Source: Gammaproteobacteria bacterium
Lineage (GTDB): Bacteria; Pseudomonadota; Gammaproteobacteria; Xanthomonadales; SZUA-36
DNA length: 64,000 nucleotides
Direction: 5' to 3'
Assembly: GCA_024279945.1 (NCBI GenBank)
Contig: JAJRRA010000048.1
Span: 1-64,000 of the forward strand
Positions 48,464 through 64,000 of the stretch are shown piece by piece (within the stretch, counting starts at the first letter, position 1; every line of letters starts with the position of its first letter). The notes beneath the pieces were generated by a model, which saw only the letters and a list, made by a program, of their open reading frames with translations, did no database searches and had not been told where the DNA came from. Made by a program: the position numbers and the translations under genes.

Positions 48464-51400
48464 ATGAACCAAGCAGACAAAGTTTCTAAAAACGCTGGAA
48501 TAGCTATCCTGACACTGATCCTTGGCCTGGGCTCGCCGGGTTTCTCCCCAGCCTCTCTTTTACTCCCGAATGTGCCCCTGTTTGTCAACATCAGTACAAC
48601 GCCGAATATTTTCCTGCAAATGGACGATTCAGGTTCCATGGACTGGGATATTTTGACTCCAACCCATTTCACAACGTGCCGCTACAACTACAAAAAGTAC
48701 TGCAGCATGGTTGAAAAATCCGGTGAATTCTATGACTGGACCGGCAAGTGGGATAGCTGGGGCCGCAGGATATTTCGAAATTTTGAATACCTGGAAACGT
48801 CGTGGGACGACGCCTATAACACGCACTGCTACAACAGCAGTCTCGATACGATTGAACTGTGTGGCAACCGGACAGGTGATGCTCCCTGGGACTGGCGCAT
48901 CAGAAGCAGTTCTCTGAATGTTCTGTACTTCAACCCGAACATCGACTACCTGCCCTGGCCTGGGTACAGCAACGCCAATTTCAATTCAGCACGCTCTTAC
49001 CCCGACCCGGCACAATACGGCTACAGCGACACGGATAATCTCGATGGTTTCGTCTACTACTACTGGATAGACGACATGGGCTTCAGTGGACCCCTGCCCG
49101 ATCGAACAAACCCAAGCATCGGAGCCAATAACATTGTCGATGAATGGGACAGCAACATCAAAGTAACCGTCACCTCCTCCACCTATAGTTGCAGCCTGTA
49201 TAAATACAGTCCGGATCAAGGCGGTCTCAATCCAAGCGTGCAGTCGCTCGCAACTTCAGATCCTCTGTGCCAGGCTGCAGTGGGCATTAACACCTCGCTG
49301 GCTGTATTCCAGCAAAACATTGCCAACTGGTTCCAGTATTACCGGCGCCGCAATATGGTAACCCGCGCAGCCGTATCAAACGTTATTACGGATCTGCCTG
49401 CATTTCGTTACGGCTTCAGCATGATCAATGACTACAATCTGTTCGTGGAGATGCCGCCTGCTTCGGTCAATGATTACCGGGCTCACAACGCTGACCTGAT
49501 CAGACAATACCTTGAGTATCCCCAGGTGATACATGGCACGCCGCTACGCAGGGGGCTGGAACGGGTTGGTCGCTACTATGACGGCCGCTTGAGCGGCAAA
49601 GCCGACCCAATCATCAGTGCCTGTCAGAAGAATTTTACAATATTGTTTACCGATGGTTACTGGAACGGAAGTTCGCCGTATATCGTACAGTCCGATGTTG
49701 ACGGTGATAATGGAGTCATATTCAAAAACAGCTATTGGGAAACACGAATTCTGCTCGCTGATGTCGCAAAGTACTATCATGACATCGACTTGTCCAGCCT
49801 GCCGGATCTCGTTCCTACCGACCAGTTTGACGCGGCCAATCAACAACATATGGTCACTTTTACCATCGGTTTCGGCGTCACCGGGTCCCTCTATGACGTT
49901 GATGGCGATGGCTGGCCGGATAATCTGAATAACGGATCCAAATGGTATTTGGCCGGAGCCAACGACAATGAACGTCGCGTTGATGATCTGTGGCATGCTG
50001 CCTGGCACAGTCGTGGCAAATTCATTTCCGCTGAACGCCCCGAGGAACTTATCAGCAGTTTGAGGGATGCCATTCTCGGTATCAGTAAACGTGTCGGTGG
50101 TGCGGCATCCGGCGCCACAAATGGCGGCTCAATCTCCGGTAAATCCAAGGTCTTCCAGGCCAAGTTCGACGCATTTGACTGGCACGGATCACTGCTGGCT
50201 ATCAATGTAAGTTCAAGCACCGGCAAACTGGATACGATTGCCTGGGAAGCCGGTACAGTCCTGGATAGCTATTCCAACAACTGGTTCATTACAAGCCGAA
50301 AAGTCTATACCTTCGATCCGGTAAACCACTCCGGCAAAAGTTTCACCTGGGCCGGTTTGAACCAAAATCAGAAGGATCTGATGAGTATCAATCCAAATAC
50401 CGGCAGTGCGGACAGCCAGGGTGAGGCCCGCGTAAACTTTATCCGGGGTTCAAATGCTGGTGAAGGGCTTAGCTTCAGGAGCCGCCAGCACCGCCTGGGT
50501 GACATCGCAAATTCTGATCCGGAGTTTGTTGGTGCTCCACCATTTTTCTATCCATTTGGCGCTTACCAGGCCTTTGCCACGAGCAACCAGAACCGGCCAG
50601 CAGTTGTTTATGTCGGCGCCAATGACGGCATGCTTCATGCCTTCCGTGAATCGGACGGCAGCGAACTTTTTGCCTTTGTTCCAAACAAAATCATCCATAA
50701 ACTGCCGGCATTAACCGCCACCAGCTACCGTCACGATTATTATGTTGACGGTTCTCCGGTCTATGGTGACATTCAGTCTGGCACATCCTGGAAGTCCGTA
50801 TTGATCGGATCTCTGCGTTCTGGCGGGCACGGTTTGTATGCCCTGGATATTACCGATCCAACCACCTTCGGCACGTCAAATATCATGTGGGAATTTACCG
50901 ACCAGGATGATGCTGATCTGGGTTATGTGTTCGGCACACCGCAAATTCGAAAAATGGCTAATGGGAAATGGGCCGCTGTTTTCACCTCTGGATACAACAA
51001 TACGGAAGCCGACGGCAACCCCTCAGTAACGGGTTCTCAGTACGTTTACATACTGTTTATCGAAGACGGCCTGGACGGATGGTCTGCCAACGATTTCGTC
51101 AAAATCCCCGTTTCTGGCGCTGATGGCATGTCAGCACCCGCAGTCACCGATGCTGACGGTGATCATGTAGCGGACTTCATTTATGTCGGAGACCTAAACG
51201 GCAACATGTGGAAAATTGACGTGACATCGTCCTATCCAGCCGACTGGGGGCTGGCATTCAATGGACAGCCGTTGTTTGTAGCAAAAAATGCGGCAGGTGT
51301 GCGCCAGCCGATCACCAACCGCCCGGCCATCATGCGCCATCCCCTGTCGATCCGCGAAGGGGTCCTGGTTCTGTTTGGAACCGGTAAATACCTGGAAATC

Positions 51401-52144
51401 AATGATGACACTACTTTGGGTGTACCTCAGCAATCTGTCTATGCTATCTGGGACCGTGACGGCTACTACAATCACGCCCTGAACCAACGCAACAACACCG
51501 GCGACCATGGCTTCACCCGCGCCGACCTGAAAAACCCCAATATTTCTGTAGATGCCCAGTCAGGCAAGAGAGTCATTTACGACTATGGCCCAAATACACC
51601 CATCTGGTTTGACGCCATTGGCAATCCGAATGACCGCGGTTGGGTTGTTGATCTGCCTGTGGCAGGAGAACGGGTGATACGAAAGATCGTGCTACGGGAC
51701 GATACCGCCTTTCTGGTCTCCCTGATTCCGGAAACGGATGAATGTTCGGCTGGCGGCAGTGGGTGGTTGATGGTGTTAAATGCACAAACAGGCGGTGCTC
51801 CGCGTTTTCCGGTTCTGGACATCAACGATGATAAGGTCATCGATGACGGCGATGTACTGAACCTGCCCAATCCGTATGACGGAACAAATGCAATCCCCAG
51901 CATCACCAATCCTGTCGGTATCCAGATGTTGAGTATTCCGAACCTGCCGGCCATGCTTTACGATGACCGCTCCTCTGACCTGGGTGGCGTATTTCCTCCC
52001 CGCCCGAACGCACCGCGGGGCTGTGGTTCAGGCGGAGCAAAATCATTCACCTACACGACCCGGACCAACGGCAGTATCAAGATGATCACCGCCGCACACC
52101 AGCCCCTGTCCTGCGGCCGTCAGAGTTGGATGCAATCCCATTAA
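48464..52144 (+). CDS. pilY1: Pilus tip adhesin/assembly factor PilY1
   Basis: This 1226-residue protein has a signal peptide, then a von Willebrand A-like N-terminal half with a MIDAS start DDSGSMD near residue 53, and a C-terminal seven-bladed propeller (about residues 650-1150: [48 protein letters not shown]). Two calcium-binding-type loops are visible: [10 protein letters not shown] near 477 and [10 protein letters not shown] near 896. In Pseudomonas the latter kind controls pilus extension and retraction. Length and operon position agree with PilY1. A cysteine-rich N-terminal third may be disulfide-linked. Confidence 0.93.
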   Translation: [1226 protein letters not shown]

Positions 52145-52169
52145 TCCACATTCAAGAGGAACTCAACCC

Positions 52170-52484
52170 GTGTCGAAACTCATACGAAATATTCTGGCCC
52201 TGGCGCTATTGCTGACCTCCCCGTTGACGCTGGCTGAAAAAATTACCGGGACGCTGAATAGGGTCTCGTTTAGCGAACACTTTATCCAGGTCGACAACGA
52301 GACTCTGGAAGTTAATACAGACTATACCCGGGTTATTTATCACGGTGACACGGTAGGTGAAGAGAGCCTGAGACCCGGCGATCAGGTCGAACTGATTATC
52401 AGCGATGATACCGGTGCAAACCAGAGACGCGATTTACATACCGTGATCCTGTTACGCGGCAGCAAGTCCGGACTGGACCGTTAG
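52170..52484 (+). CDS. Small exported PilY2-like protein
   Basis: This 104-residue protein has a signal peptide (LIRNILALALLLTSPLTLA), then one compact beta domain: ITGTLNRVSFSEHFIQVDNETLEVNTDYTRVIYHG..., LRPGDQVELIISDD. It has the form of a single OB-like or SH3-like barrel. Its place between pilY1 and pilE is where Pseudomonas has pilY2, also a small exported protein. I base the name on size, fold pattern and position, not on clear sequence identity. Confidence 0.7.
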   Translation: MSKLIRNILALALLLTSPLTLAEKITGTLNRVSFSEHFIQVDNETLEVNTDYTRVIYHGDTVGEESLRPGDQVELIISDDTGANQRRDLHTVILLRGSKSGLDR

Positions 52485-52494
52485 GAGGAGAAAT

Positions 52495-52902
52495 GTGAAA
52501 CAGCACACCACAGGGTTCACTCTGGTCGAGATGATGATCGTAGTGGTCTTGCTCGCGATTATGATAAGCCTCGCTATTCCCAGCTACCAAAATTATGTCG
52601 TGCGGACCAATCGCACCGAAGCCATTGAAGCGTTACTTGCAGCGTCCAGTTGTCAGGAGCGTCTGTTCATACGGAATAATGCTTACAGCACCGGTGCCTG
52701 TGGCGGCACATCATTCAACAATCACTACCTGATCAGCGTAACCACCAGCAATGCCAACCAGAATTTCCTTGCCTCTGCAGTTCCACAGGGACCCCAACTC
52801 AGTGATAGATGTAAAACACTGACTATCAACGACAGGGGCGTGAGGACAGCCAACAGTCAAACCGCTGCATTTGCCCAAACCTGCTGGACCGGTAAATTCT
52901 AG
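52495..52902 (+). CDS. pilE: Minor pilin PilE
   Basis: This 135-residue protein has a short leader ending TG|FTLVEMMIVVVLLAIMISLAIPSYQNYVVRTNRTEA. The head has CQERLFIRNNAYSTGACGG and a terminal AQTCWTGKF, as in the PilE/ComP minor pilins. The start is GTG, preceded by GGAGGAG. It ends the minor pilin operon; the 220 bases after it up to the sulfur cluster contain nothing I can recognise. Confidence 0.9.
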   Translation: MKQHTTGFTLVEMMIVVVLLAIMISLAIPSYQNYVVRTNRTEAIEALLAASSCQERLFIRNNAYSTGACGGTSFNNHYLISVTTSNANQNFLASAVPQGPQLSDRCKTLTINDRGVRTANSQTAAFAQTCWTGKF

Positions 52903-57289: not shown

Positions 57290-57850
57290 TCATTTAAAAA
57301 ACAGTTTTTCTTCATATTCCATAGCATTTTGAAAGGTCTGACTATTATTTATTAAACGCTGGATAACCAAAGCGCCTTGTATAGCAATTAAAAAATGTTC
57401 TGATCTTATTTTTGATTCTTTTTTACTCAAGCCAGCGTCCTTAGCCAGCTTAATAAGTGCGTCAAGCCAATCACTATAGTCTTTATTTAACAGCTCACTG
57501 ATTTCCTTTTTTTTCTCTCCAAGACTAAGAACATTTAGAAGACAATTTTTTTTGCCCTCATGATAAAACGAATTAATAGTAGTGAGCATCGTATTAAAGC
57601 GCTGTTCTGGCACTTGTTTATCATTGAGTAAAGGTCCAATGATATAAGTATGTAATTGTGAACTGACATACAACACAACGGCTGTAGCCATATCATCCTT
57701 TCCCGCTGGAAAGCGGTGGTAAAGGCTTGATTTTTTGAGTCCGGTTACTTCAGATAACAGCGATATCGACGTGCCTTCGTAGCCACGACATCGAAAAACT
57801 TCAAACAGCGATGCAGCCAAAGAATCATCATCTATTGTTGGTAACGCCAT
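57290..57850 (-). CDS. TetR/AcrR-family repressor
   Basis: This 186-residue protein has an N-terminal helix-turn-helix domain (LAASLFEVFRCRGYEGTSISLLSEVTGLKKSSLYHRFPAGKDDM), then a TetR ligand domain with Cys87-region and many lysines. ATG at 57850 has GGGGA ahead; a longer frame begins at 57868. It is divergent from a DsrE-like gene and its operators lie in between, so it likely represses both. The codon use is AT-rich, unlike genes before 57 kb, which suggests transfer. Confidence 0.9.
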   Translation of the reverse strand: MALPTIDDDSLAASLFEVFRCRGYEGTSISLLSEVTGLKKSSLYHRFPAGKDDMATAVVLYVSSQLHTYIIGPLLNDKQVPEQRFNTMLTTINSFYHEGKKNCLLNVLSLGEKKKEISELLNKDYSDWLDALIKLAKDAGLSKKESKIRSEHFLIAIQGALVIQRLINNSQTFQNAMEYEEKLFFK

Positions 57851-57877
57851 AAATCCCCGCAAAAACATTTGTTGACA

Positions 57878-58826: not shown

Positions 58827-59195
58827 CTAGGATCGTTCAGAAATGTTGGAAGGTTTCCCCCCTTTGCACCAGTCCACGTTACCCTTCTTGATCCAGAAGT
58901 GGCAGCCACAGGTATTGCGTTGATGGATAGAAGGCGCAACAGTCGGCCTGCGCCACCAGTCCATCGTGACTTTCCACCGTGGTCGCTGATGAGGGTTAAG
59001 AGAAAGATCGATCCGTTCTCCGCAACCGCCAGGGCATTGAAATGTGACCCATTTCGATACACCACCGTCACGGACAACAATAAACTCTTCAGCTTCACCT
59101 TGATCACGTGGGGGCAACCTCATCCGCTCCGTTGCGGTGAAATCAACCTTAAGTAATCCGAGCCGTCTCGCAGTATTTATAATCCACGTTTTCAT
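58827..59195 (-). CDS. DUF6527-family Cys-rich protein of a ubiquitin-like conjugation system
   Basis: This 122-residue protein starts MKTWIINTARRLGLLKVDF. It has two cysteine clusters, CPGGCGE (near residue 54) and CGCHFWIKKGNVDWC (near residue 96), with a region RIDLSLNPHQRPRWKVTMDW between, as in the DUF6527 family. The cysteines look like a zinc-binding treble-clef or rubredoxin-like pair. The family is encoded next to Multi-ubiquitin, E2 and JAB-E1 proteins. It starts two bases after the E1 gene stops, so translation is coupled. A role as E3-like or adaptor protein is a guess. Confidence 0.82.
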   Translation of the reverse strand: MKTWIINTARRLGLLKVDFTATERMRLPPRDQGEAEEFIVVRDGGVSKWVTFQCPGGCGERIDLSLNPHQRPRWKVTMDWWRRPTVAPSIHQRNTCGCHFWIKKGNVDWCKGGKPSNISERS

Positions 59196-59197
59196 AA

Positions 59198-60598
59198 TCA
59201 GAGCACCATATTCAGACAGGGTTCGACATCAGCACGGCCAAGGGTGTTGGGGTCGTAACAGGCAGGACAGCCAGAGGTTGGAGTCACACCGGGAAAGCGA
59301 TCGTCACTGGCGTGAAAGCGCCTAATACGCGTGGCGTGCATTCCCGATTTCCCATGAAAGCCCGTAACTGCCGCAAGGAGCTCGCCAATAGCCATGCATG
59401 CGGCCTCAGTCGTGAATGCAGCGACCGCTGGTGTCAGATCTCCCTCACCAAGGACATAGGCTTCCTGCTTTAAGGCCTCGAACCCTATCGGATCACGGCG
59501 TTTCAGCGCTTCCTCATGAGCACGCCGCGGATCAATATGTCGACCACATAGCAGGCACGGATGGCCATCCACCAAGGTCGAGACGCGCGCGAAGAGATCG
59601 AAGCCATTATCCGCCCGGCGCTGCATAGCAAGGCCGACATCTATAACAGGGATGCCATAGAATCGGCTGAACCTATTCAGGACGCGCCTGCCAGCGTGAT
59701 CGTCAGTGCAGGAGAACACGACATCACACGCTTTTAGTGCGTCCACTGTGCCAGGATCGCCAACAAATGCATCGATCGTGACAAGTTTCATCCCAATATC
59801 AGCATCATGAACGGTGCGCTGGTGAATTTCGGCCTTGGTCGTTCGATCTTCGGCATCCTTGCGGCGGCTGCCGTGAAGCCGATTGAGGCTGGAAAGGTCT
59901 ACCTCATCTCTTTCGAACAATATCGCCTGCTGGACTCCATGACGCATCAGCAGCGGAAGCACTGCACTGCCCGTGCCACCACCGCCGACTACACCCACGC
60001 GAAGATTTGAAATGGTGCGATTTGCGGTATCCCCGAAAAGCCGCTGCTGCCGGTCGAAAAAATCAGGATGCGCGATGTTGGCTTCGGGTGAGGTCAAGGC
60101 AATGCGCGGCCCAGCATGAAGAATACGGTTGATCGGCTCAAACTGATCGCGCGTAATCCATATCCGTGCTGCCATCACACCATCGCCATTGATTACGATG
60201 CTGATAAGGCCCTGCGTACCCTTCAGGTGCGCGGTACGGGCAAGCTCAGCTTCATTGCGACTATCCTGGTCCGAAAACTCAGCCATCCCGCCAGGATGCG
60301 TGTGAACGATGGCCGGAATCCATCCTTCACGAGCGGCCTCGCCAAAGAGGTGCATCAAACTATCGGTCGTCCAGGTGATGTGAATCGGCGAGGTGTCGAC
60401 CACCTCGCTCCCGGCGATAGGCTGGAAGGCATGACTGACGAACCGGCGACGTCGGACACCAGACCACGGGTCCGCGTCAATATCGGAGACACCAAAAAAC
60501 AGCGTTGCCGCAGCCTCATGACCATCTCCGCTTCCAAGCAGCGACTTGATCTGCATCTCGTGTGACGCCTGAAGAATGAGATCGAAGTCAATCTTCAT
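59198..60598 (-). CDS. Fusion of JAB deubiquitinase-like protease and ThiF/E1-like adenylyltransferase
   Basis: This is a 466-residue protein. Residues 10-160 form a JAB/JAMM metalloprotease: Glu28, His99-x-His101 and Ser109-x2-Asp112 in IVHTHPGGMAEFSDQD. Residues 200-440 form an E1/ThiF domain with nucleotide loop LRVGVVGGGGTGSAVLPLLMRHGV, and zinc-type CxxC pairs (CLLC near 380, CPAC near 450). It would process the ubiquitin-like precursor and activate its C-terminus. ATG at 60598 overlaps the E2 gene stop (ATGA); the longer frame would run into that gene. JAB-E1 fusions are known in bacterial Ubl operons. Confidence 0.9.
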   Translation of the reverse strand: MKIDFDLILQASHEMQIKSLLGSGDGHEAAATLFFGVSDIDADPWSGVRRRRFVSHAFQPIAGSEVVDTSPIHITWTTDSLMHLFGEAAREGWIPAIVHTHPGGMAEFSDQDSRNEAELARTAHLKGTQGLISIVINGDGVMAARIWITRDQFEPINRILHAGPRIALTSPEANIAHPDFFDRQQRLFGDTANRTISNLRVGVVGGGGTGSAVLPLLMRHGVQQAILFERDEVDLSSLNRLHGSRRKDAEDRTTKAEIHQRTVHDADIGMKLVTIDAFVGDPGTVDALKACDVVFSCTDDHAGRRVLNRFSRFYGIPVIDVGLAMQRRADNGFDLFARVSTLVDGHPCLLCGRHIDPRRAHEEALKRRDPIGFEALKQEAYVLGEGDLTPAVAAFTTEAACMAIGELLAAVTGFHGKSGMHATRIRRFHASDDRFPGVTPTSGCPACYDPNTLGRADVEPCLNMVL

Positions 60599-61509
60599 GA
60601 GCGAGCCTCTTCCAAGGCCACGCGCACCCGGGCCACCATCGTTTGCAGACCGTCCACCCCCGGACGCCAAGCCGGGCAATGACGTGACCACCGCTGCCAG
60701 ACTCGATCCGCAAAATTGTGATTCACATTCGCAGCACGAGCTTCCCGTCCGCTGGCAGACAATTTGATTCGTGGTGATGTGTAGAACATGTCGGGCGGCG
60801 TGTCAGGATATCCGGGAGGCAAGATAATCAGGACATCCGCGACATCATGATCGTACTTGCCTTCCGGTAATGAGTAACCTTTGAGAATGACCCCGATCGT
60901 GCCGCCGCTCTTAACGACGTCGAAACTAATGTCTCGACTTTCAAGAAAGGCGCGATCGCCCGACGGAATCATCTCCCTGCCCTCTGTGGTCTGATCAATG
61001 ATCGATATAAAGCGTTCGACGCCAGGCTTCCCCAGATCGATAAGATCGCAATCATTAATCTTCTGGTCATGGCCGCCTGGAACATCGAGCCAGAGCGCAT
61101 AGTTAGGCGCAAGGGCAGCAAGCTTTTTGATGACGAAACCAGAAATTAAGCGCTTCGGCCACTCAAGATCTTTATCATCTATCTTGAACAGAAACTTGCG
61201 ATCGGTCCGCGCGACCAGTACCCGTTCAGCGCCACGACCGCACAGATCATAAGATTCATCGAGGCGAATATCCTCGAAATCACCACTAGGGAGAATAGCC
61301 GTCGCTGTATATTCGTGGACGGGGGCACCTCCTGTCGCCTCGATGAACTGTCGACCCAAAAGCATGGGGTCATCAAAAATATGATTTTTGAAGTCCAGTG
61401 TCTCGTCCGCGATCAATACTCGAAAACGGGCGCCGGGCTTGAGCGGGCGTCCGTCATGAATGGCATCAGCGAGATCATCGACATTCTGATCTTGAGGGTT
61501 ATCAGTCAT
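60595..61509 (-). CDS. Multi-ubiquitin-like protein fused to an E2-like conjugating domain
   Basis: This is a 304-residue protein. Residues about 25-100 and 100-185 are two beta-grasp (ubiquitin-like) domains (RFRVLIADETLDFKNHIFDD..., RKFLFKIDDKDLEWPKRLISGFVIKKLA). Residues 195-304 are a Prok-E2-type domain: VILKGYSLPEGKYDHDVADVLIILPPGYPDTPPDMFY, the E2 proline-rich core, then HNFADRVWQRWSRHCPAWRPGVDGLQTMV with Cys278 as the candidate thioester site. Fusion of polyubiquitin and E2 in one chain, with JAB-E1 and DUF6527 next door, matches a class described in comparative genomics of bacterial ubiquitin-like systems. ATG at 61509 has AGAAGGAA ahead. Confidence 0.88.
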   Translation of the reverse strand: MTDNPQDQNVDDLADAIHDGRPLKPGARFRVLIADETLDFKNHIFDDPMLLGRQFIEATGGAPVHEYTATAILPSGDFEDIRLDESYDLCGRGAERVLVARTDRKFLFKIDDKDLEWPKRLISGFVIKKLAALAPNYALWLDVPGGHDQKINDCDLIDLGKPGVERFISIIDQTTEGREMIPSGDRAFLESRDISFDVVKSGGTIGVILKGYSLPEGKYDHDVADVLIILPPGYPDTPPDMFYTSPRIKLSASGREARAANVNHNFADRVWQRWSRHCPAWRPGVDGLQTMVARVRVALEEARS

Positions 61510-61593: not shown

Positions 61594-64000
61594 TCAGATG
61601 AGATTATTTTTGATGAGCAGCCCTTGAGGGGGATCGTCACAAACGAAGAAGTGCGGGCAACGAGGGCAAGTTCGATTGGGGTTGGGTGGGAAATTGCCAG
61701 ACAGGATTTTGCCGATCGCTTCGTCGATCCTGTCGCGGCGATTATTGAGCATCTTCGGGCTCAAGGAAACAGACGCGGCGACCTCATCGGTAAGGAAAAC
61801 GAATTCCACTTCTGCATCCCTACCTGCCGCCAACTGGTATGCAGCAGCATCAAGTGATTCGGTAGCCTTGGAAGTCTGACGACCGGTCCAGATACGACGG
61901 ACGACGACCCTACCGTCGCTCCTTTCGACATAATCATCGGGCTTAACCACTATCTTCGCTACTCCCATGTCGATCTCGAGGTCGCGCGGAGTGAGTTGTT
62001 TATCGCCCTTTCGAAGGGCAATCAGGATGTCAAATAGCCTGCGTCCTGCGACTTTATAGTCTTCTGCATTTGGGTTGTCAGCCGGGCCACGTGCCTCCCA
62101 GTGTTCCTCAAAGTCGGGAATATCATTCGATGGATCGGTCAAAAGAGCGTCGATTGCGCGTTGAACTGCAGCATGCATTTGCATGAAAGCGCTTTCCGTA
62201 CGACGCCCCCCTAACTTGAGGACGTGAGTAAACAAGAAGCGGCGCGGACATTTGTCGTAGAGCGCAAGTTGTGCCGGTGTCAGGGTAACCGTTTCCTGAA
62301 ATCGGACGTCTACACAGCTTGGTGAAGACGGCGGCGCTTCGGTTGCCGCCAACGGCGCTTCAATACTCACCGTATCACCGAGGCGGTCAATAAACGGCGA
62401 CGACCTCTGGGAACGACCGCCTCGTTGTTTCGAAGGCGCGTAGAGAAAGAGGCTGTCTTCTGCACGGGACAAAGCGACAAAGAAGAGGCACTCCTGTTCC
62501 TCATCATGACCGGGCTTAAGTGCATCGAGGCCCCGAGTACCTTCCTCATCAATTAACCCATTTGGTGGAGGCAAGGCACGAATTTGATTGGCAGACTGAG
62601 GCAATGAAGCGGCGGAAAGTGAGGGCATATGCACCGCCTTGAACTCAAGTCCCTTGCTCTTGTGGATCGTCAAAAGGCGGACAGCATCGAGGGACTGGGC
62701 GGCGACGGGGAGGTCCCTCAAGTCTCTTTCGTCCGACAAAATGACGAGTCGACGAATATGATCCAGCAGGTCTCCAATTGGGTAACCATGCCGCTCAATA
62801 TACGTCGATCTTAGAAAGTTTTGCAGTTGCCACAGAGCAATCGCAGGCAAGGGCTCATTTCCACTCAGGCCAAGCGCATATCGTGCAGCAAGACGAGTAC
62901 GATCAAGGTAGAGCGAAGCGAAAGCCCTCCAGGGTGTTGCCTCGGGCGTAAGCCCATGAAACGCCTTCGCAAGAGCGGCAAACTTGCTTGCACCTCCGGG
63001 CGAAATAACGCCTCCCGTGGGAAGTATGTCACGCCAAGCAAGCGGCTCCAGGGAAGAGGCATCAGCCAGCGCCTTTACAGCGGCCACAACGTCCGCCAAC
63101 GGCACTGAAAATTCAGGAGTTGTCGCAACCTTTACGAGTGCCATCGCACGCGGGTCGATGAGAAGAGAAAGTAGTGAAAGCGCCTCTTTGGTTGCCGACC
63201 GATCGAACAGAGGCCCCAGAAACAGGACGGGTACGTCTTGCGCTTCGAGACTGGCGGCCACCTCTGCCAGCCGATCATTCGACTTACAGAGCACAGCTTG
63301 ATTCATGTAGGTGATGCCGCTCTCCTTGCAGGCATTGATCCGAGCAGCAAGTTCATTCAGTTCGTCGTCTTTCGTGCCGACGCGCACGAAAACGGGCTTT
63401 TGGCCCGATGAGCCTCGGTGTGCTGCCGATTGAAACCCGGTTTCGGCAGCTTTCATATCTGCACACGCGAATCCTGCGTAGGCGTCACAAACCTCTTGGA
63501 CAGAACGGTAATTAACCGTCAACCCCATCGTTTGACCACCGGGAAAATCGTCGGTTTCGAATCGCACCATATTGACTGATGAGGCACCACGAAAGCGATA
63601 AATCGACTGTTTGGCATCCCCCACAACCCACAGGCCTTGTCCGTCAGGCTTTAGCGCCTTCAACAATTGGACACTTGCACGATTGACATCCTGGTACTCA
63701 TCTACAAGGACATGAGAGTAACGTGAGCATAGTTGCCCACGCACATCTGCGTCAGTCTCGATAAGCCTCACGGTACGAAATACTAGGTCGCCGAAATCGA
63801 CCGCACCACGTTCGGCTTTAAGCGCCTCGTACGCCTCATACACTTGGGCAATTTCCAAACACCTCTTGCCATGAGTGCGTTCTTCATCGGTTTGAGCCGA
63901 GTCGTATGTCGATCGCGCAAGTATTTTATAGTCTTGGTGGTCAACCACCTCGTCTTTGGCTCGGGAAATTGCAGCTAGTAGGTCCCTCAGCACATCTGTC
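61594..64000 (-). CDS. UvrD/AddA-type helicase with C-terminal nuclease-fold domain (partial, N-terminus beyond window)
   Basis: At least 800 residues are visible; the ATP-binding Walker A part lies outside. SF1A motifs are clear: VDEYQDVNRA (II), GDAKQSIYRFRGA (III), VNYRS (IV), TIHKSKGLEF (V), FVALSRAEDSLFLY (VI). The last 250 residues have the RecB-like fold with a first Cys (YDKCPRRFLFTHVL) and a terminal C-x2-C-x5-C (TCPRCPHFFVC), the AddB/Cas4 Fe-S arrangement. The active-site strand reads VVVRRIWTG where active nucleases have D-x-K, so cleavage is doubtful. It lies 84 bases upstream of the E2/ubiquitin gene on the same strand and may belong to the same operon. Confidence 0.88.
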   Translation of the reverse strand, partial: TDVLRDLLAAISRAKDEVVDHQDYKILARSTYDSAQTDEERTHGKRCLEIAQVYEAYEALKAERGAVDFGDLVFRTVRLIETDADVRGQLCSRYSHVLVDEYQDVNRASVQLLKALKPDGQGLWVVGDAKQSIYRFRGASSVNMVRFETDDFPGGQTMGLTVNYRSVQEVCDAYAGFACADMKAAETGFQSAAHRGSSGQKPVFVRVGTKDDELNELAARINACKESGITYMNQAVLCKSNDRLAEVAASLEAQDVPVLFLGPLFDRSATKEALSLLSLLIDPRAMALVKVATTPEFSVPLADVVAAVKALADASSLEPLAWRDILPTGGVISPGGASKFAALAKAFHGLTPEATPWRAFASLYLDRTRLAARYALGLSGNEPLPAIALWQLQNFLRSTYIERHGYPIGDLLDHIRRLVILSDERDLRDLPVAAQSLDAVRLLTIHKSKGLEFKAVHMPSLSAASLPQSANQIRALPPPNGLIDEEGTRGLDALKPGHDEEQECLFFVALSRAEDSLFLYAPSKQRGGRSQRSSPFIDRLGDTVSIEAPLAATEAPPSSPSCVDVRFQETVTLTPAQLALYDKCPRRFLFTHVLKLGGRRTESAFMQMHAAVQRAIDALLTDPSNDIPDFEEHWEARGPADNPNAEDYKVAGRRLFDILIALRKGDKQLTPRDLEIDMGVAKIVVKPDDYVERSDGRVVVRRIWTGRQTSKATESLDAAAYQLAAGRDAEVEFVFLTDEVAASVSLSPKMLNNRRDRIDEAIGKILSGNFPPNPNRTCPRCPHFFVCDDPPQGLLIKNNLI

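Follow-up and report, generated by a model that had tools for sequence, protein, structure and literature searches.

A Bub-type ubiquitin-like operon and its linked IrrE-UvrD gene trio in a gammaproteobacterium

Contig JAJRRA010000048.1 of a gammaproteobacterium (GenBank assembly GCA_024279945.1) carries an operon of six genes, which encode a sigma-like protein (c2), a small protein (c3), an IrrE-UvrD fusion, a fusion of two ubiquitin-like (Ubl) domains with an E2-like domain, a JAB-E1 fusion and a DUF6527 protein. By sequence and structural modelling, the last three genes are a Bub-type cassette (class 6e of Iyer et al., 2006), a kind already known. New here are the TTEG end of the Ubl, the rejection of Cys278 as the E2 active site and, above all, the linked trio of c2, c3 and IrrE-UvrD, which is common to other Ubl systems. 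The window is the whole stretch analyzed, 64,000 nt at contig positions 1-64,000; residue and coordinate numbers refer to it unless the contig is stated, and loci of relatives are cited by L numbers.

The six-gene operon and its Bub-type cassette

The three cassette genes are intact and lie on the minus strand in order from 61509 down to 58827. The Ubl-Ubl-E2 fusion (BubA-BubB-like, 304 amino acids; 60595..61509) matched Pfam Multi_ubiq PF14452 in two stretches (E 1.4e-25) and Prok-E2_E PF14462 (E 1.6e-41). Its gene overlaps by four bases (ATGA) that of the JAB-E1 fusion (BubCD-like, 466 amino acids; 59198..60598), in which Prok-JAB PF14464 (E 2e-7) and ThiF PF00899 (E 6.2e-29) were detected. 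After a gap of 2 bases follows the gene for the DUF6527 protein (122 amino acids; 58827..59195; PF20137, E 2.3e-24). A sequence-only reading of the window had described this compact three-gene operon with its ATGA and 2-base junctions, and its domain assignments (two Ubl plus E2, JAB plus E1, and DUF6527 as third gene) agree with Pfam. It had overlooked the start of the conserved unit, namely the three genes upstream. The earlier interpretation as a whole is partly supported.

The IrrE-UvrD gene is located 84 bases upstream of the Ubl-Ubl-E2 gene and is cut by the window end. The part inside the window, encoding the C-terminal part of the fusion, occupies 61594..64000 on the minus strand, and the gene runs to contig 64980. 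Outside the window, c3 (contig 64967-65617, or from 65533 with a later start) lies upstream of the IrrE-UvrD gene and c2 (contig 65526-66359) upstream of c3. The parts and their order were observed directly.

Matches to multi-ubiquitin structures, BubB and BubCD identified the cassette as a Bub operon. By sequence, the 304-residue protein matched PDB 8u38 in its Ubl part (E 9.5e-28) and Citrobacter BubB in its E2 part (E 4.8e-10), and residues 9-416 of the JAB-E1 protein matched Citrobacter BubCD (E 1.6e-20). Solved relatives comprise Citrobacter BubB and BubCD (PDB 9ea4, 9ea5, 9eae, 9eav) and multi-Ubl proteins (8u38, 9d59, 9d5b, 9cd2). An AlphaFold model of the 304-residue protein, based on a 29-row alignment, had a mean predicted local distance difference test (pLDDT) of 79.7 and a predicted TM-score (pTM) of 0.44, with low confidence at residues 1-5, 173-179 (between the second Ubl and E2), 235-238 and 277-285. 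Structure comparison placed its Ubl part with bacterial multi-ubiquitin structures and its E2 part with Citrobacter BubB (TM-score 0.85 by target length, root-mean-square deviation 1.7), and the beta-grasp and E2 folds that had been anticipated were thereby found.

The proposed kinship with catalogued prokaryotic Ubl operons was borne out by this Bub homology and by class 6e. In row 6e of Iyer et al. (2006), a polyUbl and an inactive E2/RWD-like domain, either fused to it or encoded separately, stand with a JAB-E1 fusion and a protein that binds metal; the E2-like domain of this kind was termed cysteine-less (PMC1779556). The window shares with the class its two Ubl repeats (two to three in the class) and an E2-like domain lacking a conserved cysteine. 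However, the class 6e passages of that paper name neither a helicase or sigma-like partner nor a Ubl end (PMC1779556). Bub operons likewise contain a multi-Ubl, a Prok-E2_E domain with QRWSRH and a JAB-E1 fusion, and DUF6527 was present in the other Bub-like plasmid operons opened, except L088 (none in the gene table). They differ from the window, where Ubl and E2 are fused and the IrrE-UvrD trio stands upstream instead of a separate IrrE regulator. The three window proteins gave no match to the PADLOC Bil models at E up to 1.

The JAMM residues Glu28, His99, His101, Ser109 and Asp112 were found in the window protein and in 37/37 aligned relatives, as expected from the earlier description of a JAMM site (Glu28, His99, His101, Asp112) joined to an E1. 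In the E1 part, Cys297 of a CTDD motif (37/37) and Cys291 (33/37) were near-invariant, and the putative zinc cysteines 348, 351, 444 and 447 were each kept in 35/37. No clear E1 thioester cysteine was found in this 37-sequence alignment, every other cysteine column reaching at most 24/37. In DUF6527, Cys54, Cys58, Cys96 and His99 were invariant (27/27) and form a candidate metal site. Their arrangement (C54-x3-C58, 37 residues, C96-x2-H99) fits the spacing of the class 6e signature C-x3-C-x(35-38)-H-x2-C, with the last two ligands reversed. A Foldseek search with the DUF6527 fold gave no match at E 0.001, and the best VIA Z was 2.2; these results are not evidence of a new fold.

The Ubl end and the E2-like site

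The motif TTEG (residues 174-177; 60979..60990, minus strand) was present at the Ubl-E2 joint in 26/26 fused proteins of this clade, and length varied directly behind its glycine. In the nine operons with split Ubl and E2, the separate Ubl genes all ended in TTEG or STEG plus 0-8 residues (9/9). Three stopped exactly at the glycine (L053 from Synechocystis pSYSX, L087 and L089), five carried 2 or 3 further residues and L052 carried 8; the annotated Ubl reading frames are short in L088 and L089 (67 and 88 residues). Because TTEG is the natural end of separate Ubls and the JAMM residues are kept in all relatives, the simplest reading is that the Ubl ends at Gly177 and that the fusion looks like a pro-protein, which the JAB protease would cut behind this glycine. 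The model, with its low-confidence stretch around this joint, is consistent with such an end. A cut between Ubl and E2 had been suspected earlier, and the conservation of TTEG together with the ends of separate Ubls upholds this suspicion. The junction had been sought between residues 180 and 200; a candidate glycine was indeed revealed by conservation, but Gly177 falls just before that range.

The fusion could instead work uncut, with Gly177 internal, the E2-like domain acting as an RWD-like binder and the multi-Ubl protein serving as a scaffold or filament rather than a tag. The lack of a conserved cysteine in the E2-like domain fits this idea, as do the RWD-like ubiquitin binding suggested by Iyer et al. 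(2006) in the text on this class (PMC1779556) and the PDB titles of 9d59 and 9d5b, which name multi-ubiquitin protein filaments of Citrobacter and Methylobacterium. We nevertheless consider it unlikely, since TTEG stands at every joint of the clade and coincides with the end of separate Ubls, and conserved JAMM and E1 residues would hardly be needed by an uncut scaffold.

The E2-like domain (Prok-E2_E, residues 181-302; 60604..60969, minus strand) was delimited by Pfam, the BubB match and an alignment of 37 sequences, consisting of the window's domain, 27 from other fused proteins and nine from separate E2 genes. The sequence-only reading had taken Cys278 (codon 60676..60678, minus strand) as the E2 active site and had named its conservation in relatives as the test. 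Cysteine occupies this position in 2/37 domains (the window and L002), Asn in 29/37 and other residues in 6/37, and the fullest cysteine column of the alignment reaches 22/37. Cys278 is therefore rejected as the E2 active site. A canonical cascade with a thioester at Cys278 is hardly credible for the same reason: the cysteine seen in the window protein and L002 speaks for it, but Citrobacter BubB has none there and the site lies within the low-confidence loop 277-285. Of the active-site residues described earlier as intact, those of the JAB site and of E1 adenylation stood, whereas the E2 cysteine did not.

Positions invariant in 37/37 E2 domains include Q272, W274, S275, R276, H277, W281 and D286. 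Within the RWSRH motif (residues 273-277; 60679..60693, minus strand), Ser275 and His277 are a candidate non-cysteine transfer motif, and Citrobacter BubB has QRWSRHR at the equivalent place. The Bub papers reportedly describe an unusual transfer chemistry.

The upstream trio and its Ubl cassettes

A UvrD-family gene was located directly upstream of the Ubl gene in 32/36 relatives from named genomes (the contig end cuts L005, L009 and L019), and the c2 and c3 clusters were both found in 28/36 and in the window's contig. Among the other four, L036 and L037 lack the upstream gene, and L034 has less than 1 kb of upstream DNA. L022, matched partially where its contig ends, has 6.4 kb upstream that holds no such gene. 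The full IrrE-UvrD protein of the window's contig has 1128 residues and consists of an IrrE/M78 protease (Peptidase_M78, E 6.2e-8), a UvrD helicase and a PDDEXK_1 domain. All 18 of the sampled proteins kept HEXXH, Walker A and DEYQD. In the same 18 proteins the four Fe-S-like staple cysteines of the fused nuclease domain were invariant, and no acidic residue or lysine of the PD-(D/E)XK site was, so that the nuclease is probably dead and doubtful as an active enzyme. The C-terminal part of c2 matched the sigma factor FliA (sigma-region-4-like; profile E 9.1e-7).

A survey reported 219/544 Bub operons with CapW or CapH+CapP and others with CapK+CapS; in its account of these regulators, CapP is a protease activated by single-stranded DNA that cleaves the repressor CapH (PMC13373217). 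The window resembles CapH+CapP in having an IrrE-type HEXXH protease beside a Bub operon, but its protease is fused to a helicase and c3 is weakly similar to the helix-turn-helix partners. CapP is presumably of the ImmA/IrrE kind. The IrrE proteins that stand next to eight Bub-like operons on plasmids supplied a profile, which was run over the open frames of 63 loci. Four of these loci (L005, L009, L019 and L034) were set aside because they lie too close to contig ends, and a fifth, L022, because its gene is partial and neither type was found there. A separate IrrE gene was found in 0/46 loci with a full or nearly full IrrE-UvrD, many of them close relatives, vs 10/12 without it (10/13 including L022), within flanks of about 3 to 9 kb. 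Eight of these ten positive loci had built the profile; L036 and L037 were independent finds, the gene of L037 lying downstream. L052 and L054 had neither fusion nor separate gene. In the window's contig, which is outside the 46, no separate IrrE gene was seen by eye among the neighbours; this comparison concerns CapP alone, no search for CapW or CapK/CapS having been made. The IrrE part of the fusion matched the stand-alone IrrE set (hhalign probability 96%, E 4.8e-9). This match and the missing separate gene suggest that control of these operons lies with the fusion, in which the helicase would serve as DNA sensor. A literature search, noisy and not covering the main Bub papers, returned nothing linking these operons to IrrE-UvrD, and absence in print is not claimed.

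The trio also accompanies other kinds of Ubl cassette. When sampling started from the helicase, a Ubl/E1 cassette was present in 10/10 plasmid loci opened, which were hand-picked for variety. Six came from the 60 listed of 92 records with E no higher than 1e-60, and four of lower identity from the 50 listed of 235 records, a set in which many entries match ordinary UvrD helicases in part. Five of the ten (L075, L076, L077, L079, L080) carried a Ubl3-DUF6791-E1-DUF6527 cassette, L078 an enterobacterial Bub cassette in divergent orientation and L082 a Mesorhizobium-type cassette. In L081, L083 and L084 the same kind of trio precedes the genes of an anti-phage Bil (BilABCD) cassette, and L083 matched PADLOC BilA, B, C and D at E 4.9e-57 to 6.5e-175. 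For c2 and c3 of L078, L082 and L083 there was no tblastn match and assignment was by position and alignment; for c2 of L084, likewise without a match, it was by position alone. Sampling with the c3 profile found 6/398 genomes of the phylum positive, and helicase plus cassette were present in 6/6, including the window's own.

A quick tree built from 47 helicases required 6 changes among the five kinds of cassette vs a minimum of 4, and two Bub loci, the fused L050 and the enterobacterial L078, fell within the Ubl3-DUF6791 group. It therefore seems that the trio stayed constant while the cassettes behind it were exchanged, the deep order of the tree being unsure owing to the long branches L083, L084 and L101. 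That trio and cassettes merely share defence islands, with no functional link, is very unlikely. Other defence-type genes (AbiEii, RES, SbcCD-like) do occur nearby in some loci, but order is fixed and spacing short in the 32 loci with the upstream helicase, and trio-first sampling met a cassette in every plasmid locus and genome.

Several features of these loci were recorded besides. The three-domain Ubl of the Ubl3-DUF6791 type has a conserved tail, FNVT[KR]T-x-QS (or DKS; INVSRTIQS in L077) and no terminal glycine (L026:7998-8753; also L024-L033, L035, L036, L075-L077, L079, L080). Its E1 bears DUF6791 where JAB stands elsewhere (L026:8668-9912), and a FDGDFPC-like stretch, noticed by eye, may be an E2-type cysteine motif. 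SbcD-like phosphoesterase genes, some followed by a SbcC-like ATPase gene, lie downstream of the cassette in L007:10834-14570, L012:10695-11933, L025:10298-13581 and L082:12088-15273, and also in L002. Genes for an AbiEii-family toxin and DUF6088 adjoin the trio in L049:2404-4033 and L080:2430-4554.

Island insertion, spread and proposed role

The operon was probably acquired horizontally and is inserted as an island between guaA and tadA. The guaA loci were fetched for 19 relatives; tadA was in the same stretch in 14/19 and less than 20 bases away in both congeners (L056, L057). The distance in the window's contig is 11.3 kb. This insert contains the six operon genes, an RNase_T exonuclease gene, a RES gene preceded by a 133-amino-acid gene, and a low-GC stretch by tadA. 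The nearest Ubl-E2 relative in the genome scan (77%) was from the alphaproteobacterium Marinicaulis flavus. Operon relatives occurred on 173/72,556 plasmid records, and the IrrE-UvrD helicase on 92/72,556 at E 1e-60 or better; the module is therefore not confined to one genome. Searches for a phage origin matched 0/50,697 phage records, and viral_contigs gave 3 pattern matches and no relative; a phage origin was accordingly rejected. A search for E. coli carriers gave no megablast match for the Kluyvera locus L026.

Among the neighbours, the RNase_T, RES and 133-amino-acid genes lie upstream of the trio, just beyond the window (contig C49:66428-68132), and the latter two may be a RES-type toxin-antitoxin pair. 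The segment 57191-58826 between operon and tadA has a GC content of 0.406, unlike both its neighbours, with a TetR-like open reading frame at 57290-57868 (by eye). Farther away, at 48464-52902, inspection by eye showed a PilY1-like protein of 1226 amino acids, behind which come a small protein and one that resembles type IV pilins.

For the six genes as a whole we favour, at slightly better than even confidence, a DNA-stress-triggered Ubl conjugation via the Bub-type operon. IrrE-UvrD would be a DNA sensor whose helicase engages broken or single-stranded DNA, from phage replication or damage, and thereby switches the HEXXH protease; this would act on c3 or c2 and raise operon expression. JAB would cut the Ubl-E2 precursor after Gly177, so that the E2-like protein is set free from a Ubl of two domains with TTEG at its end. 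E1 would adenylate Gly177, and the E2-like domain with Ser275/His277 may help to pass the Ubl to a target, with no cysteine thioester on the E2. JAB may also strip the tag, and DUF6527, bearing the putative metal site, probably binds the target or the Ubl. Conservation and genetic linkage were observed directly, as was the island insertion; we infer every activity, the target and the phage link. A broader form, to which we give somewhat less than even weight, makes the trio an exchangeable front end that would read DNA stress and turn on whichever Ubl cassette follows (fused Bub, enterobacterial Bub, Ubl3-DUF6791-E1, Mesorhizobium-type or Bil), the Bub tag being stored as a Ubl-E2 pro-protein, released by JAB at Gly177 and handled by a non-cysteine E2.

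The following points weigh against the DNA-stress reading. According to the Bub survey, no protection against phage has been demonstrated for these operons, whose role is open (PMC13373217). The cassette occurs without the trio in L036 and L037, and the ten plasmid loci were a non-random choice. Residues of the fusion's nuclease site are not conserved. c3 has no Pfam family (three members scanned) and no significant PDB match (best E 0.46), and its similarity to the helix-turn-helix partner set is weak (probability 12.5%). TTEG is missing from L054 and L078, whose fused proteins belong to the enterobacterial type, which is more distant.

The trio might also be an effector rather than a switch, the Ubl cassette modifying IrrE-UvrD (or phage DNA-processing proteins) and so turning a DNA-attacking helicase on or off. 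A helicase serving as common substrate would be expected to stay constant while the Ubl cassette varies, as is seen here, and UvrD-like GajB helicases function in Gabija defence (PMC10952713). We judge this improbable, since the fused nuclease site is degenerate and the missing separate IrrE gene better suits a control role.

The TTEG result reduces the question of the tag end to a one-residue test. The dedicated helicase-protease partner, common to Bub and Bil, suggests a DNA signal as the trigger of these systems and provides a candidate for knock-out.

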